10,489 nt of DNA from Oxalobacter sp. (GTDB taxonomy: Bacteria > Pseudomonadota > Gammaproteobacteria > Burkholderiales > Burkholderiaceae_D), in contig JAAZED010000276.1 of assembly GCA_012512465.1 (NCBI GenBank), positions 1-10,489 of the forward strand, in the 5' to 3' direction. Under the pieces are notes generated by a model. The model ran no database searches, was not told the DNA's origin, and saw only the letters and a program-made list of their open reading frames with translations. The position numbers were made by a program, and so were the translations under genes. Below are positions 3,644-10,489 of this stretch, piece by piece (position 1 is the first letter of the stretch; each line of letters opens with the position of its first letter).

Positions 3644-4441
3644 ATGAACACGCGCCAATCTGAACGTTACTCCCGCCATATCCTGCTGAAAGAACTGGGC
3701 ATGGATGGCCAGGAAAAAATCCTGGCTGCCCATGCCCTTGTCATTGGCGCAGGCGGCCTGGGATCACCTGCCTGCTATTACCTGGCTTCCGCTGGAATCG
3801 GGAAAATCACGCTCGTGGATGACGACACAGTAGACTTGTCCAATCTGCAACGGCAAATCCTGCATACAACCGATCGTATCGGCCGGCCGAAAGCCGTTTC
3901 CGGAAAAACCACGCTGTCGAAAATCAATCCGGATATCGACATTATTGCGTTAAATGAGCGGCCGGATGAATCCCGCCTGCATGAACTTGCCGAAAGCGCA
4001 TCGGTTGTTCTGGACTGCACTGATAACTTTGCCAGTCGCCACATCATCAACCGGGTTTGCGTTGCCAGCCGCCGGCCACTGGTATCCGGCGCGGCACTGC
4101 AGTTTGACGGACAGGTATCGGTCTATGATATGCGCGCAAACGATGCGCCATGCTACTCCTGCCTGTTTTCAGCCGACCAGCCGTTTGAAGACAGAAAGGC
4201 GGCACAATTCGGCGTCTTTGCTCCTGTTGTCGGCATCATCGGCACCATACAGGCTGCGGAAGCCTTGAAACTCGTGGCCGGCATTGGCAAATCACTGGCT
4301 GGTTCACTGCTGATTCTTGATGGACTGACCATGTCGTGGACCCGGATACAGCTTGACCGCAATCCGGATTGTCCTGTCTGCGGCAACACCAGGCCCGCGC
4401 CTGAAATCACGAAGCGCCATAACGAGCGCGATAGGCATTGA
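3644..4441 (+). CDS. moeB: MoeB/ThiF/HesA family sulfur-carrier adenylyltransferase
   Basis: E1-like enzyme of 265 residues that adenylates the C-terminal glycine of a small sulfur carrier protein (MoaD in molybdopterin synthesis or ThiS in thiamine synthesis). Visible features are the ATP-binding loop GAGGLGS (35-41), the acidic DDD at 59-61, the SNLQRQ motif with catalytic Arg70, Lys83, Asp127 in DCTDN, and two zinc-binding pairs, CYSC (170/173) and CPVC (243/246). There is no C-terminal rhodanese domain. It starts 9 bases after ctpA with only a weak GCGGGA upstream, so it is probably expressed by read-through from the envC-ctpA unit. No moaD, thiS or other cofactor gene is present nearby, so MoeB versus ThiF cannot be decided from this window; moeB is the conventional name for this form. 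Its 3' end overlaps the convergent pyrE by 35 bases. Confidence 0.88.
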
Positions 4442-6529: not shown

Positions 6530-7768
6530 TTATTTGTTACCGTTCCAGGGCGCGATTTTGGGGAGCATCATCATGCCCGGCAATGCCAGGACAAAACAGA
6601 TATTGAAAAACATGAACCAGCCGGTCTGATCCACGATAAAGCCCGCGGATGCGTTGATAAACGTGCGGGGAATCGCCGCCAGAGACGTAAAAAGCGCGTA
6701 CTGTGTGGCACTGTACCGCTTGTCCGTGGTTCTGGCGATATAGGCAACAAAGGCCGCCGTTCCCAGCCCGACCCCCAGGGCTTCAAAACCAATCACAAAG
6801 GCAAGGATATAGGGATTTGCGCCCTGTACCGCTATCCATGAAAAGCCCAGAATGGATACCGCCTGCACCACCCCATACAACCACAGTGCCCGGTTGATGC
6901 CCAGGCGGATCATCCAGATCCCCCCCAGCATGCCGCCGATCAGGCTCGCCCAGAAACCGGTCGTTTTCGCAATGGCGCCAATCTGGGTCATGCTAAATCC
7001 CAGGTCCAGATAAAACTTAGTTGCCAATGCCGTAGCCAGGCTGTCCCCCAGCTTGTACAGAAAAATAAAACTCAGGATAAAAAAAGCATTCTTCCAGCCC
7101 GCACGGGTAACAAACTCCCTGAAAGGCAAAACAACCGCTTCCCGCAGATTGGCCGGAGGTACGCCATATATTTCGGGTTCCTTGATCAGAAGTGAGCAGA
7201 TAAATCCTGGAATCATGAAAGCGGCTGTTATCCAGAAGACCCATTGCCAGCTCATCATGTCCGCTAAAATCAGGGAGAGTGCCCCAGGAACCATGCCCGC
7301 AACCCGATAGGCATTCACATGAATGGCACTGCCCAATCCCTGCTCATTATCCGGCAGCAATTCCCGCCGGTAGGCATCCAGTGCGATATCCTGGCTCGAA
7401 GACAGGAAAGCAACAAATGTGCACAAGAGGCCAATCAGCAAAAGATGCTTCATCGGATCAAGCATGCCCATCATGCCGATGGAAAAGAAAAGGCCAAGCT
7501 GGGTAATTGCCATCCAGCCGCGCCGGCGCCCCATCTTTCCAAGGCTGAAGCGGTCCATCAGCGGCGCCCAGATAAATTTCCAGGTATAGGGGAACATCAC
7601 CAGCGCAAAAAGGCCCAGTGATTTGACATTAAGTCCCGACTTGGCAAGCCAGGCCTGAAGCAGGTTAAGCAGGATAAAAAGCGGCAGTCCGGATGAAAAA
7701 CCGATAAAAACGCAAATCAGCATGCGCTGGTGAAACGCACTGAAGAATTTGCGCTCAGGCGTTGTCAT
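6530..7768 (-). CDS. ampG: AmpG-like muropeptide permease (MFS)
   Basis: Inner-membrane major facilitator protein of 412 residues. AmpG imports GlcNAc-anhydro-muropeptides for cell-wall recycling and thereby feeds beta-lactamase induction in some bacteria. Family signatures are GFSSGLPLFILLNLLQAWL near residue 22, the loop MDRFSLGKMGRRRGW between TM segments 2 and 3, SSSQDIALDAYRRELLP, FLYKLGDSLATAL mid-protein, and SATQYALFTSLAAIPR near the end. About twelve hydrophobic segments are visible. It is shorter than E. coli AmpG (491 residues), lacking the extra C-terminal membrane segments, as in many other proteobacterial AmpG proteins. Its ATG overlaps the metW stop (ATGA, four bases) and it has no strong Shine-Dalgarno of its own. 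It is therefore probably translationally coupled to metW and transcribed with metX-metW. Substrate specificity is inferred from homology only. Confidence 0.88.
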   Translation of the reverse strand: MTTPERKFFSAFHQRMLICVFIGFSSGLPLFILLNLLQAWLAKSGLNVKSLGLFALVMFPYTWKFIWAPLMDRFSLGKMGRRRGWMAITQLGLFFSIGMMGMLDPMKHLLLIGLLCTFVAFLSSSQDIALDAYRRELLPDNEQGLGSAIHVNAYRVAGMVPGALSLILADMMSWQWVFWITAAFMIPGFICSLLIKEPEIYGVPPANLREAVVLPFREFVTRAGWKNAFFILSFIFLYKLGDSLATALATKFYLDLGFSMTQIGAIAKTTGFWASLIGGMLGGIWMIRLGINRALWLYGVVQAVSILGFSWIAVQGANPYILAFVIGFEALGVGLGTAAFVAYIARTTDKRYSATQYALFTSLAAIPRTFINASAGFIVDQTGWFMFFNICFVLALPGMMMLPKIAPWNGNK

Positions 7769-8382
7769 AAGCCGGATGATGCTTTCTTTTTCAATCGAAA
7801 AACAGCCAGCGCGCCACGCAGGTTGCGAAGAAAAGACACCGGTTTTCCATGGTGAAGCGCCACGCAGTCTGTCACCGTCAGCCCGACCCGATTGGCCAGG
7901 TCGCCAAAATCACTGATCGTCGCGCACCGCAGGTTCGGGGTGTCATACCACTCATAGGGCAACTCCTGGGTTACCGGCATACGCCCTTTCAGCAGCGTCA
8001 GGCGATTCTGCCAATAAGCAAAATTAGGAAAGGAAACAATGGCTTCATTACCCACCCTTGCAATATCGTGCAACAGTTCTTCCACATTTTTCATCATTTG
8101 CAGCGCGGACAGGCACAGCACCGTATCAAAAGAATTATCCGCAAACAGGTCAAGCCCCTTTTCCAGATCATGCTGGATAACCGGTACCCCCCTGCTTGCA
8201 CAGCCCGGAATTTTTTCATCGTCAATTTCAACACCGTAGCCACTGCATCTTTTTATCGAATGCAGATATTCCAGCATGGCGCCATCACCACATCCCAGGT
8301 CCAGCACATGCGCCTCTTCCGGAACCCAGTGGGCGATAAATGCCAGGTCGGCCCTGAGTTCCCGCAGTTTGAGTACGGCCAT
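7765..8382 (-). CDS. metW: methionine biosynthesis protein MetW
   Basis: A 205-residue protein with a class I SAM-dependent methyltransferase fold. The SAM-binding motif is HVLDLGCGDGAMLEYL (about 25-40); further conserved pieces are the QHDLEKGL segment, FDTVLCLSALQ, and SFPNFAYWQNR. MetW is the regular partner of MetX in many proteobacteria and is thought to be needed for MetX function in homoserine acylation; its own methyl acceptor is not established. The ATG shares one base with the metX stop (TGATG), and GGAGGA in the metX tail serves as ribosome binding site, so the two are tightly coupled. The stop overlaps the ampG ATG. The reading frame is intact, unlike its partner metX. Confidence 0.93.
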   Translation of the reverse strand: MAVLKLRELRADLAFIAHWVPEEAHVLDLGCGDGAMLEYLHSIKRCSGYGVEIDDEKIPGCASRGVPVIQHDLEKGLDLFADNSFDTVLCLSALQMMKNVEELLHDIARVGNEAIVSFPNFAYWQNRLTLLKGRMPVTQELPYEWYDTPNLRCATISDFGDLANRVGLTVTDCVALHHGKPVSFLRNLRGALAVFRLKKKASSGL

Positions 8383-9519
8383 CAGTTCCTCCGCTCCTCA
8401 ATTTCCAGCCACATCCTGTCAACGTAGGATCGGACCAGGTCATGGTATCGTTCATCCGTCAGCAAGAAGGCATCATGCCCGTGCGGCGCGTCAATATCCG
8501 CGTAGGTCACTTCCCGCCGGTTATCAATCAGCGCCTTGACGATTGCCCGGCTGGCATCGGAAGAAAAACGCCAGTCCGTTGTGAATGATGCCAGCAAAAA
8601 TTTTGCCTGCGTGCCTGCCAGTGCCCTGGTCAGGTCACCATCGTAAGGTGCTGCGGGATCAAAATAATCCAGCGCCCGGGTAATCAGCAGATAGGTATTG
8701 GCGTCAAAATAGGAAGAGAACTTGTCGCCCTGGTAATGCAGATAGGATTCGATTTCGAACTCCACACCAAACCCGAAATGATACTGGCCCGAACGCAGCA
8801 TGCGGCCGAATTTTTCGGACATGTCCACATTGGAAAGATACGTGATGTGGCCTATCATGCGCGCCACGCGCAAACCGTTTTTCGGCAGGACACCATACGC
8901 ATAAAAATCGCCGCCGTGAAAATCCGGATCGGTCAGAATCGCCTGGCGGGCCACATCATTAAAGGCAATATTCTGGGCTGAGCTTGGCTGTCGATGCAAT
9001 AGCAATACAGTGTTCGAGCCGGGCCGGAAACATCATGCTCCACGCCAGCGCCTGCATCCCCCCCAGAGAACCACCCATCACGGCAGCAAATTTCCGTATG
9101 CCCAGCACATCAGCAAGACGGGCCTGTGACTGCACCCAGTCTTCAACGGTGACAACAGGAAAACCATGTCCATAAGGCTTGCCCGTTTCGGGATTGATAT
9201 GCATCGGCCCCGTAGAACCAAAGCAGGAGCCCAGGTTATTCACGCCGATGACAAAAAAACGGTTGGTATCAACCGGCTTTCCCGGTCCAACCATGTTGTC
9301 CCACCAGCCAATGTTATTAGGCTGATCCTCATAATACCCGGCCACATGGTGTGAGGCATTCAACGCATGACAGATCAGTATCGCATTCGATTTATCCGCG
9401 TTGAGCGTTCCGTAGGTCTCATAGACCAGCGTGTAATTGGCAATCAATGCGCCGCTTTGCAAACGCAAAGGCTCATCAAAATCAATTGACCGGGCAGTTA
9501 CCGCTCCAACAGAAGTCAT
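8382..9519 (-). pseudogene. metX: homoserine O-acyltransferase MetX, interrupted by a frameshift
   Basis: Alpha/beta-hydrolase that acylates homoserine, the first committed step of methionine synthesis; MetX proteins partnered with MetW in betaproteobacteria are usually assigned as O-succinyltransferases. The N-terminal frame, starting at ATG 9519, contains [21 protein letters not shown] and the nucleophile elbow [10 protein letters not shown] with Ser151. It then runs off after IASTAKLS into a TAA at 8961-8959. The C-terminal frame resumes with [15 protein letters not shown] and carries the Asp of TTDWRF and the His of PHGHDAFLL. Relative to the family sequence KLSAQN, two bases are missing near 8979-8984; adding them gives a normal 379-residue MetX. 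No slippery site is visible. This is either a disabling mutation or a sequencing or assembly error. The start is also uncertain: GTG 9534 and even CTG 9546, four bases after GGAAGG, are in frame. It is first in a SAM-regulated operon with metW and ampG. Confidence 0.85.
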
Positions 9520-9569
9520 GTATTCGTCTTGCACCCTGAAAAACAGCGTGCCTTCCTTTTTATTTCATG

Positions 9570-9608
9570 AAAAAACAAAGCCCGAAAGCAGCGGACCTGT
9601 CGGGCTTG
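9570..9608 (-). terminator. intrinsic terminator in the metX leader (riboswitch expression platform)
   Basis: On the minus strand, AAGCCCGA (9607-9600) pairs with TCGGGCTT (9585-9578), eight base pairs with a 14-base loop, followed by TG and a run of six T (9575-9570). It lies about 50 bases upstream of the metX ATG and about 14 bases after the riboswitch aptamer core. It could also end ptsI transcripts. Its 5' strand overlaps a possible antiterminator hairpin (9617-9604), as expected for a transcriptional riboswitch. Confidence 0.8.
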
Positions 9609-9612
9609 TTTT

Positions 9613-9688
9613 CAAGCTCGCTTTAGCCGCATTTATTTCGGGGACATCCCCCTGCGCCCGCAAGCTGAATTGTTCAAATCGGCGCAAC
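9613..9688 (-). ncRNA. SAM-II-type (metA motif) riboswitch upstream of metX
   Basis: Minus-strand RNA that fits the SAM-II aptamer, which binds S-adenosylmethionine through an H-type pseudoknot. P1 is UGCGCC (9686-9681) with GGCGCA (9658-9653). Loop 1 begins GAUUUGAAC and ends CUUGC, like known SAM-II loops. After P1 comes a small extra hairpin, GGGG-AUGU-CCCC (9651-9640), then the A-rich AUAAA (9636-9632) and the conserved core GCUAAAG (9627-9621). The bases after the core can pair back to loop 1 (for example 9621-9615 with 9666-9660, seven pairs with one G-U), although the exact pseudoknot register is uncertain. A promoter immediately upstream and an intrinsic terminator immediately downstream, followed by metX, make the assignment strong. 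The motif match is from memory of the family consensus; no covariance-model search was run. Confidence 0.8.
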
Positions 9689-9694
9689 AGTACA

Positions 9695-9723
9695 AGCATA
9701 ACGAAGTCATCGCCCAGCGTCAA
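9695..9723 (-). promoter_or_regulatory. sigma-70-like promoter of the metX-metW-ampG operon
   Basis: On the minus strand, TTGACG (9723-9718, five of six to the -35 consensus), a 17-base spacer, and TATGCT (9700-9695, four of six to the -10 consensus). Transcription would begin near 9691-9688, directly before P1 of the riboswitch, so essentially the whole leader is riboswitch. It starts about 20 bases after the ptsI stop. Confidence 0.75.
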
Positions 9724-9743
9724 ACCACAGAAGAAAAAAAGCG

Positions 9744-10489
9744 TTACACGGCTGCAGGCAACTGCCTGACTTTCTCAACAGCCCGCTCGATCGCATCCGG
9801 CTCTCCCAGACTCAATATTCTTTTTACCCTGGGTGCAAGCTCTTTTAAGCTGGCATTGAGAATTTCCTGCTTCACCGTCAAAAGCTGGGTGGAGTGCATG
9901 GAAAACTCCCTCAACCCCATGCCGAGCAAAAGCCGCGTCATGGCAGGATCTCCTGCAAGCTCACCACAGATGGATACCGGCAAACCAGCCTTCGCACCCG
10001 CCCTGATGACCGTTGACAACATGGTCAGAATCGCCGGATGCAAGGGATTGTACAAATGGGCCACTTCCGGATCTACGCGGTCAATCGCCAGGGAATACTG
10101 GATCAGGTCATTGGTACCGATCGACAGAAAATCCAGGCGACTGGTAAACATGGACAAGGCAAAAATCGCCGCCGGCACTTCAACCATGGCGCCAATAGGA
10201 ATATTCGGGTCAAACTTCACCTTTTCGGCCTTCAATTGCGATTTGGCCTGCTCAATCATCGCCAGCGACTGGTCAATCTCAAAAGCATGCACCAGCATCG
10301 GAATCAGCAGCTTTACCGGACCAAAAGCCGATGCCCTGAGGATAGCGCGTAATTGCGTCAGGAAAAGCTCCGGCTCCGCAAGGCAAAAACGGATAGCACG
10401 CTTGCCCAGTGCCGGGTTCAGCACACTGAAATCAGAAATGCCGATCGGCTTGTCTGCACCGATATCCAGCGTACGGATCGTCACAGGAC
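9744..10489 (-). CDS. ptsI: PTS Enzyme I (phosphoenolpyruvate-protein phosphotransferase), C-terminal part
   Basis: Transfers phosphate from phosphoenolpyruvate to HPr, the first step of the phosphotransferase system. Only the C-terminal PEP-binding TIM-barrel domain, about 248 residues, is in the window; the frame is open at the right edge and the start and phospho-His domain lie outside. Visible active-site pieces, in order, are LDIGADKP, the PEP-binding Arg in KRAIRF, LRAILRASAFG, the metal-ligand Glu in AMVEVPAA, the SIGTNDLIQYSLAIDR motif with metal-ligand Asp, the catalytic Cys in SICGELAGDP, and LLGMGLREFSMHS. These match E. coli PtsI closely. In betaproteobacteria PtsI usually belongs to an incomplete PTS with regulatory roles; HPr and an EIIA would be expected next to it outside the window. 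A run of seven T starts just after the stop, but no hairpin directly precedes it, so ptsI transcripts may end at the metX leader terminator. Confidence 0.95.
   Translation of the reverse strand, partial: PVTIRTLDIGADKPIGISDFSVLNPALGKRAIRFCLAEPELFLTQLRAILRASAFGPVKLLIPMLVHAFEIDQSLAMIEQAKSQLKAEKVKFDPNIPIGAMVEVPAAIFALSMFTSRLDFLSIGTNDLIQYSLAIDRVDPEVAHLYNPLHPAILTMLSTVIRAGAKAGLPVSICGELAGDPAMTRLLLGMGLREFSMHSTQLLTVKQEILNASLKELAPRVKRILSLGEPDAIERAVEKVRQLPAAV

Follow-up and report, generated by a model that had tools for sequence, protein, structure and literature searches.

Riboswitches of the SAM-II class (Rfam RF00521, SAM_alpha) are already on record for betaproteobacteria: Bordetella is included in the SAM-II alignment of 2005 (Corbino 2005, PMC1273637), and SAM-II elements with terminators were later reported from alpha- and betaproteobacteria (Barrick and Breaker 2007, PMC2258182). 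Two further leader elements of methionine genes have been filed separately. Leyn 2014 (PMC4239095) presented metXZ as a new beta-proteobacterial element, found in 35 of 199 genomes and in 30 cases before metXW, for which a pseudoknot with terminator and antiterminator was proposed; the cited sections of that paper draw no link to SAM-II and name no ligand, and the SAM_alpha scan they report returned just Rhizobiales and Rhodobacterales. Bp2_287 (RF02424) is filed as an sRNA gene. Khoo 2012 proposed that it acts in cis in methionine metabolism and names purF, metZ and metX as neighbours in a legend (PMC3521395), and according to a 2024 review RIT77 of B. cenocepacia is Bp2_287, an expressed RNA whose coordinates span 135 bases (PMC10987360). 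Two more described systems are close in fold. SAM-V is an H-type pseudoknot with a short stem-loop (P3) directly after P1, which SAM-II is said to lack (PMC6061858), and the SAM-II family with enlarged loops, RF01726, is listed for Bacteroidetes and marine sequences (Weinberg 2010, PMC2864571).

The window, that is the whole stretch of DNA analysed, comprises 10,489 nucleotides of a contig from Oxalobacter sp. It carries a metX leader that we regard, with a probability of about 0.83, as a transcription attenuator built on a riboswitch of the SAM-II class, in its betaproteobacterial 'metXZ' branch. The leader lies between the end of ptsI (3′ part, ending at 9744), its upstream neighbour, and the metX ATG (9519), and reads promoter, aptamer, terminator on the minus strand. 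The first part of metX (8959–9519, minus strand) is nearest to homoserine O-succinyltransferase MetX (NF047916, 323.1 bits for the part; the cut-off, set for the whole protein, is 560). It is followed on the same strand by metW (7765–8382; TIGR02081, 235.4 bits, cut-off 189.5) and by an ampG-type transporter gene (6530–7768; TIGR00901, 489 bits, cut-off 350), which overlaps the end of metW. The metX gene is split over two overlapping frames (8382–9534); the frame is broken near 8980 and resumes in another frame as a second part (8382–9005, minus strand; NF047916, 318.5 bits). As a genome of the same species contains metX as a single 394-codon open frame, the break is either an assembly error or a strain variant. 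The genes of the window also include trpB and pyrE, the latter (minus strand) overlapping a moeB/thiF-type gene (plus strand) tail to tail by 35 bases (4407–4441). The host genome consists of 2.04 Mb in 448 contigs. Oxalyl-CoA decarboxylase was detected above its cut-off in 12 of 13 genomes of the genus versus 1 of 14 control genomes; together with the several Oxalobacteraceae among the named metX relatives, this makes Oxalobacter the probable genus. The host bacterium is probably gut-dwelling.

A preliminary description of this DNA had placed a promoter, SAM-II elements and an eight-pair terminator on the minus strand at 9723–9570, and reading of the letters confirmed this layout. A motif scan located the −35 hexamer TTGACG at 9718–9723 and, 17 bases from it, the −10 hexamer TATGCT at 9695–9700; together they match 9 of 12 consensus positions, and one such site was found in the 701 bases scanned versus 0.5 expected. 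Transcription is predicted to start a few bases before P1. The 5′ strand of P1, UGCGCC (9681–9686), pairs with GGCGCA (9653–9658), and the bases between the two strands read GAUUUGAACAAUUCAGCUUGC. They include GAUUUG (9675–9680), which opens loop L1 and by homology would provide the third strand of the SAM-II triplex, and CUUGC (9660–9664), the conserved pseudoknot segment forming the 5′ side of P2. L3, AAAUAAAUGCG, follows at 9628–9638 and the core GCUAAAG, the 3′ side of P2, at 9621–9627. P1, GAUUUG, CUUGC and GCUAAA thereby stand in the same order as in RF00521, and as in that family the promoter lies a few bases 5′ of P1, the terminator comes after the aptamer and methionine genes (here metX–metW) are located downstream. 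The window differs from the family in an extra hairpin after P1, in CAGCUUGCGG around the core and in a short or weak P2a. The folding energy of the whole leader is unremarkable (z −1.43).

Conservation was analysed in 92 metX upstream regions, namely 12 from the genus (12 of the 13 genomes searched, two of them from one species) and 80 named records, the best 80 of 551 metX relatives. The named records are mostly betaproteobacterial by title, several being Oxalobacteraceae, and a few are titled just 'Proteobacteria' or 'Gammaproteobacteria' (e.g. L058, L107, L100). The motif GAUUUG..CUUGC..GCUAAR with at most one mismatch was present in 79 of the 92 regions; these 79 leaders, to which the counts below refer, include identical ones and amount to 74 distinct stretches. 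P1 with at least five pairs (best of four offsets) was found in all 79, its fourth pair being C-G in 43 and U-A in 36. Covariation of P1 within the set of a single spacing was not above shuffles, and three of the six pairs are invariant. According to the preliminary description the assignment would fall if P1 and GCUAAA were not conserved in related metX leaders; both are conserved, and this refutation therefore fails. The promoter is retained with the −35 hexamer in the same position and at fixed spacing in 12 of 12 genus leaders, and TTGACN-N16-18-TANNNT was found just 5′ of the aptamer in 36 of the 79 leaders (genus plus best 80 of 551) versus 0.07 expected from shuffles. Evidence for P2a is uneven. 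Its first pair is C-G in 48 of 51 leaders of the metX set, pairs 2, 3 and 5 are not above shuffles, and the fourth pair exceeds them modestly (29/51 versus 21.9; 22 of 1000 shuffles); in 34 other Burkholderiales elements the second pair was seen in 26 versus 19.2 (3 of 1000). In the window and the genus, P2a is weak beyond one C-G pair. Of the 13 regions lacking a motif match, two end at a contig end (L049, L095), L070 was found by our model R1 (see below) and L085 in part, and the remaining nine gave nothing above chance in the motif and R1 searches. The metX upstream regions of this set from Massilia, Pseudoduganella and Duganella (L050, L052, L053, L055, L099) are among those without the motif.

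The extra hairpin, GGGG-AUGU-CCCC (GGGGAUGUCCCC, 9640–9651), was not mentioned in the preliminary description. It is located directly 3′ of P1 and before the AUAAA stretch, at the place of P3 in SAM-V, so that the window joins the core of SAM-II to a stem positioned as in SAM-V. The two differ in that the window has a longer P1 and a terminator, whereas SAM-V controls ribosome binding (PMC6061858). The L3 region of the window folds with −7.5 kcal/mol (shuffle p 0.023; 0.007 for the identical row L032), and the compact stemless L3 that is typical but not defining of SAM-II is absent from it. Among the 79 leaders (12 genus and best 80 of 551), L3 measures 11–14 bases in 49 and 21–48 bases in 30, and in 18 of the latter the fold beats 95% of mononucleotide shuffles. 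In the alignments to our model R3 that were inspected, the hairpin appears as a pure insertion. We suggest that the aptamer may tolerate this stem between P1 and L3, at a position corresponding to that of P3 in SAM-V.

The check named in the preliminary description, a search of the stretch with the Rfam model SAM_alpha (RF00521), gave no significant match. None reached the cut-off of 36 bits in the window; a permissive search yielded 15.0 bits (E 0.39) over model positions 10–42, i.e. P1 and L1, half of the motif, and no match at E 0.001 was obtained in the host's own genome. The inserted hairpin plausibly explains part of this low score, since leaders without it (L056, L058, L059, L060) reach 27.6–33.5 bits; L040, which also lacks the hairpin and shows other changes, reaches 22.9 bits. 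A search of the genus at E 10 was dropped as evidence and used just for taking places, because it gave matches in 13 of 13 genus genomes but also in 14 of 14 controls. Five Rfam families matched positions 9500–9760 at E up to 10. SAM-V, which we take to be RF01826, was not among them, nor did the long-loop family RF01726, likewise a SAM-II with enlarged loops, match at that threshold; the weak matches to MicC, Thr_leader and CRISPR-DR22 were far below their cut-offs and were rejected. RF00521 marked the metX leader in 15 of 15 related loci that were hand-picked, most of them for a short L3 (22.8–41.5 bits); L107, L110, L064 and L103 exceeded the cut-off, and L040 and L082 had E values of about 0.7. 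In 20 related loci, mostly of Oxalobacteraceae and their relatives, four of which are also among the 15, nothing was detected at any Rfam cut-off. At L064 a TPP riboswitch (61.1 bits) was observed on the opposite strand at 1714–1805, some 80 bases away from the element of the metX leader.

Models were then derived from the leaders themselves, each from one linker class, because the MAFFT alignment mis-registers the one- and two-base linker classes of P1. Model R1, built from 30 metX leaders, found all 35 held-out leaders whose P1 linker is of the other, longer kind. It also recovered all 30 classical RF00521 loci from another class of the phylum (E 1e-6 to 0.004), about 10 of which are distinct in the parts compared and which we infer to be alphaproteobacterial; this search gave one further match, at E 0.87. 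Model R3, built from 19 leaders of which none is from this genus, scored 65.2 bits in the 10.5 kb window (E 3.8e-18), the next best match being 11.6 bits, and detected all 12 genus leaders, the window's among them (34.5–66.6 bits). Homology to SAM-II is seen in both search directions, and a SAM-II-type identity is well supported by sequence comparison, the argument being carried by the related leaders and the models built here and not by an Rfam match in the window. At E 0.01, R1 matched 110 of 150 Burkholderiales genomes, the host's own included. In 29 loci of the order (L154–L182), tblastn placed metX downstream in six and metK in one, and MetZ-like and MetH-like starts were recognised by eye downstream of many others.

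The intrinsic terminator (9578–9607, minus strand) consists of the arms AAGCCCGA (9607–9600) and UCGGGCUU (9585–9578), forming eight pairs, and the U tract UGUUUUUU (9570–9577), and it ends about 50 bases 5′ of the metX ATG. A simple terminator scan alone was not above chance (1 found versus 1.0 expected). Among the 12 genus leaders and best 80 of 551, 72 of the 79 leaders have a hairpin followed by eight bases of which four or more are U, and 69 of these 72 hairpins lie at or below −9 kcal/mol. Five Undibacterium leaders (L044, L045, L047, L051, L054) keep the aptamer and have no convincing U-tailed terminator (none, or hairpins of −1.7 and −5.8 kcal/mol). Between core and terminator lies a small hairpin, also absent from the preliminary description, CG-A-GCUUG-AAAA-CAAGC-C-CG (9601–9620, −7.4 kcal/mol), which overlaps the 5′ arm of the terminator and is a candidate antiterminator. 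A similar GCUUG/CAAGC-like hairpin follows the core in 9 of 12 genus leaders; the version of L037, GCUUU/AAAGC, is weak. Pairing of GCUAAA with downstream bases (at least five contiguous pairs) occurs in 61 of the 79 leaders (genus and best 80 of 551) versus 27.3 expected; within the genus it was found in 1 of 12 leaders and is absent from the window.

On this layout we propose the following course of events. Transcription would start just 5′ of P1. At high SAM, P1 would close and the pseudoknot form, CUUGC pairing with GCUAA and GAUUUG serving as third strand. The bound aptamer would take up GCUAAAG together with the base or bases immediately 3′ of it, disfavouring the small hairpin 9620–9601, and AAGCCCGA would be left free, so that the terminator could form and metX–metW(–ampG) would be off. 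At low SAM the small hairpin would hold the 5′ arm of the terminator and the polymerase would read through. The preliminary description already had SAM turning off metX–metW–ampG by termination, which is plausible in that it fits the layout and published SAM-II cases. For SAM-II of S. meliloti metZ, high SAM was reported to raise the terminated leader RNA and to lower read-through mRNA, promoter activity also going down (PMC9373788). The coupling itself was analysed by constrained folding. Blocking the aptamer core lowered the upstream pairing of the terminator arm in 65 of 69 leaders (mean 0.64 to 0.42), but random blocks did as much (mean 0.42; core lower in 32/69, p 0.77), and in the window the random control was lower than the core block (0.38 versus 0.47). 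This effect was dropped as support for coupling, and the exchange of hairpins is therefore proposed from the overlap and from precedents (PMC1273637, PMC2258182, PMC9373788).

A second, diverged form of the element was detected in the host genome by both R1 and R3, 59 bases before metK (TIGR01034, 590.7 bits; L014 1505–1580, G000:C384:5027–5102). This metK form reads GAGUUAA instead of GAUUUG, with the pattern GAGUUAA..GACAACUUGC..GCUAAAGCGUC, at L014 GAGUUAA..GACAACUUGC..GCUAAAGCGUCGC. Model R2, built from nine copies of the metK form from the genus Oxalobacter, located it in 11 of the 13 genomes of the genus; other Burkholderiales carry the element as well. In 19 of the best 30 R2 loci of the order, metK follows 58–94 bases downstream; the other 11 showed no metK in the stretch examined, and four of these have a canonical copy 88–201 bases upstream. 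P1 of the metK form varies with compensation, pair 5 being C-G in 19, U-A in 9, G-C in 8, A-U in one and unpaired in one of 38. RF00521 gave 16.5–18 bits on the metK form, and R2 gave just two matches among the 30 classical loci, both of them weak (E 0.046 and 0.66).

Three other explanations of the metX leader have to be weighed. The same aptamer might let SAM act mainly on translation or via Rho, the terminator being constitutive or feeding only a short leader RNA. The five Undibacterium leaders, in which the scan found the aptamer without a convincing terminator, would fit such a mode, as would the lack of a specific effect in the folding test and the report that a terminator 3′ of SAM-II at S. 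meliloti metA lowers expression in both media (PMC9373788). In the window, however, the terminator ends some 50 bases short of the ATG, the ribosome-binding region lies outside the aptamer, and all 12 genus leaders carry a hairpin of −12 kcal/mol or better that starts 5 to 15 bases after the core and is followed by a U-rich tail, weakest in L037 and L041. We consider this mode rather unlikely. A SAM-II fold that binds another SAM-related molecule (SAH, methionine or spermidine) would have a parallel in the spermidine-sensing variants of SAM-I (PMC10853860), and the metK form of the same genome, with its third strand changed from GAUUUG to GAGUUA, likewise speaks for it. The metX leader itself has retained GAUUUG, CUUGC and GCUAAA as in the classical family, however, and the genes downstream are methionine genes, which makes a different ligand very improbable here.

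The last explanation concerns the opposite strand, from which an antisense small RNA would be made with no leader riboswitch being present. RF02424 matches the plus strand at 9575–9713, far below its cut-off (17.7 bits versus 70), and in Burkholderia Bp2_Cand287 was one of the candidates examined by RT-PCR and is discussed as a validated one (PMC3521395). Against this, promoter, terminator U tract and SAM-II core all point toward metX, and the consensus of RF02424 opens with a run of A and GCCCGC, as the complement of a terminator would. In 120 Burkholderiales genomes, RF02424 detected 19 places in 18 genomes at E 0.001, one above cut-off, and at 19 of 19 (L227–L245) R1 matched the same place on the opposite strand. 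The locus above cut-off (L227, 107.5 bits, minus strand) has by eye a metZ-type gene after the element on the plus strand and a purF-type gene before it. We give an antisense RNA almost no weight at the metX leader. Bp2_287 and the SAM-II-type attenuator favoured here would be the same leader element, consistent with the cis-acting role suggested by Khoo 2012 (PMC3521395), the difference being that Rfam models its antisense strand and lists the family under sRNA genes. The metXZ element, a metXW or metZ leader, likewise agrees in gene context, conserved blocks and terminator, the pseudoknot being assigned here by homology (PMC4239095).

The preliminary description held that SAM-II in a betaproteobacterium deserves documentation. 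Its presence is well supported; it is not new, given Bordetella in the alignment of 2005. The analysis adds a connection among SAM-II, metXZ and Bp2_287, which had been filed apart, as well as the P3-like stem and the metK form. Apparently new is that metXZ is SAM-II, that RF02424 models the same element in antisense and that the host has a second form before metK; a search of open-licence papers in PubMed Central found none in which metXZ or Bp2_287 is equated with SAM-II or the metK form is named. By this assignment the orphan element of 2014 gains a ligand hypothesis and a known fold, and an Rfam sRNA family is found to model the antisense of a riboswitch. It also helps to explain why standard SAM-II scans list few betaproteobacterial members compared with the 110 of 150 Burkholderiales genomes matched by a tailored model, and methionine control in Burkholderiales would become directly testable. 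More tentatively, and with considerable doubt, we raise the idea of a betaproteobacterial methionine regulon (metX, metZ, metH, metK) on an unrecognised SAM-II branch. The host would then possess two sub-classes: a metX form bearing a P3 like that of SAM-V, and a metK form whose changed third strand would alter ligand choice or affinity. If true, one cell would read SAM use and SAM synthesis through two different pockets.

Some metK-type elements (L206, L211, L212, L215, L216, L220, L224), partly in tandem with a canonical copy, precede other genes as judged by eye. The frames after them are a small frame beginning MYDCL.. or MFDCYLDE.., or a MATE-type transporter-like frame (..LAGPIIIAQLAQTAMAFVDTVMAG..).
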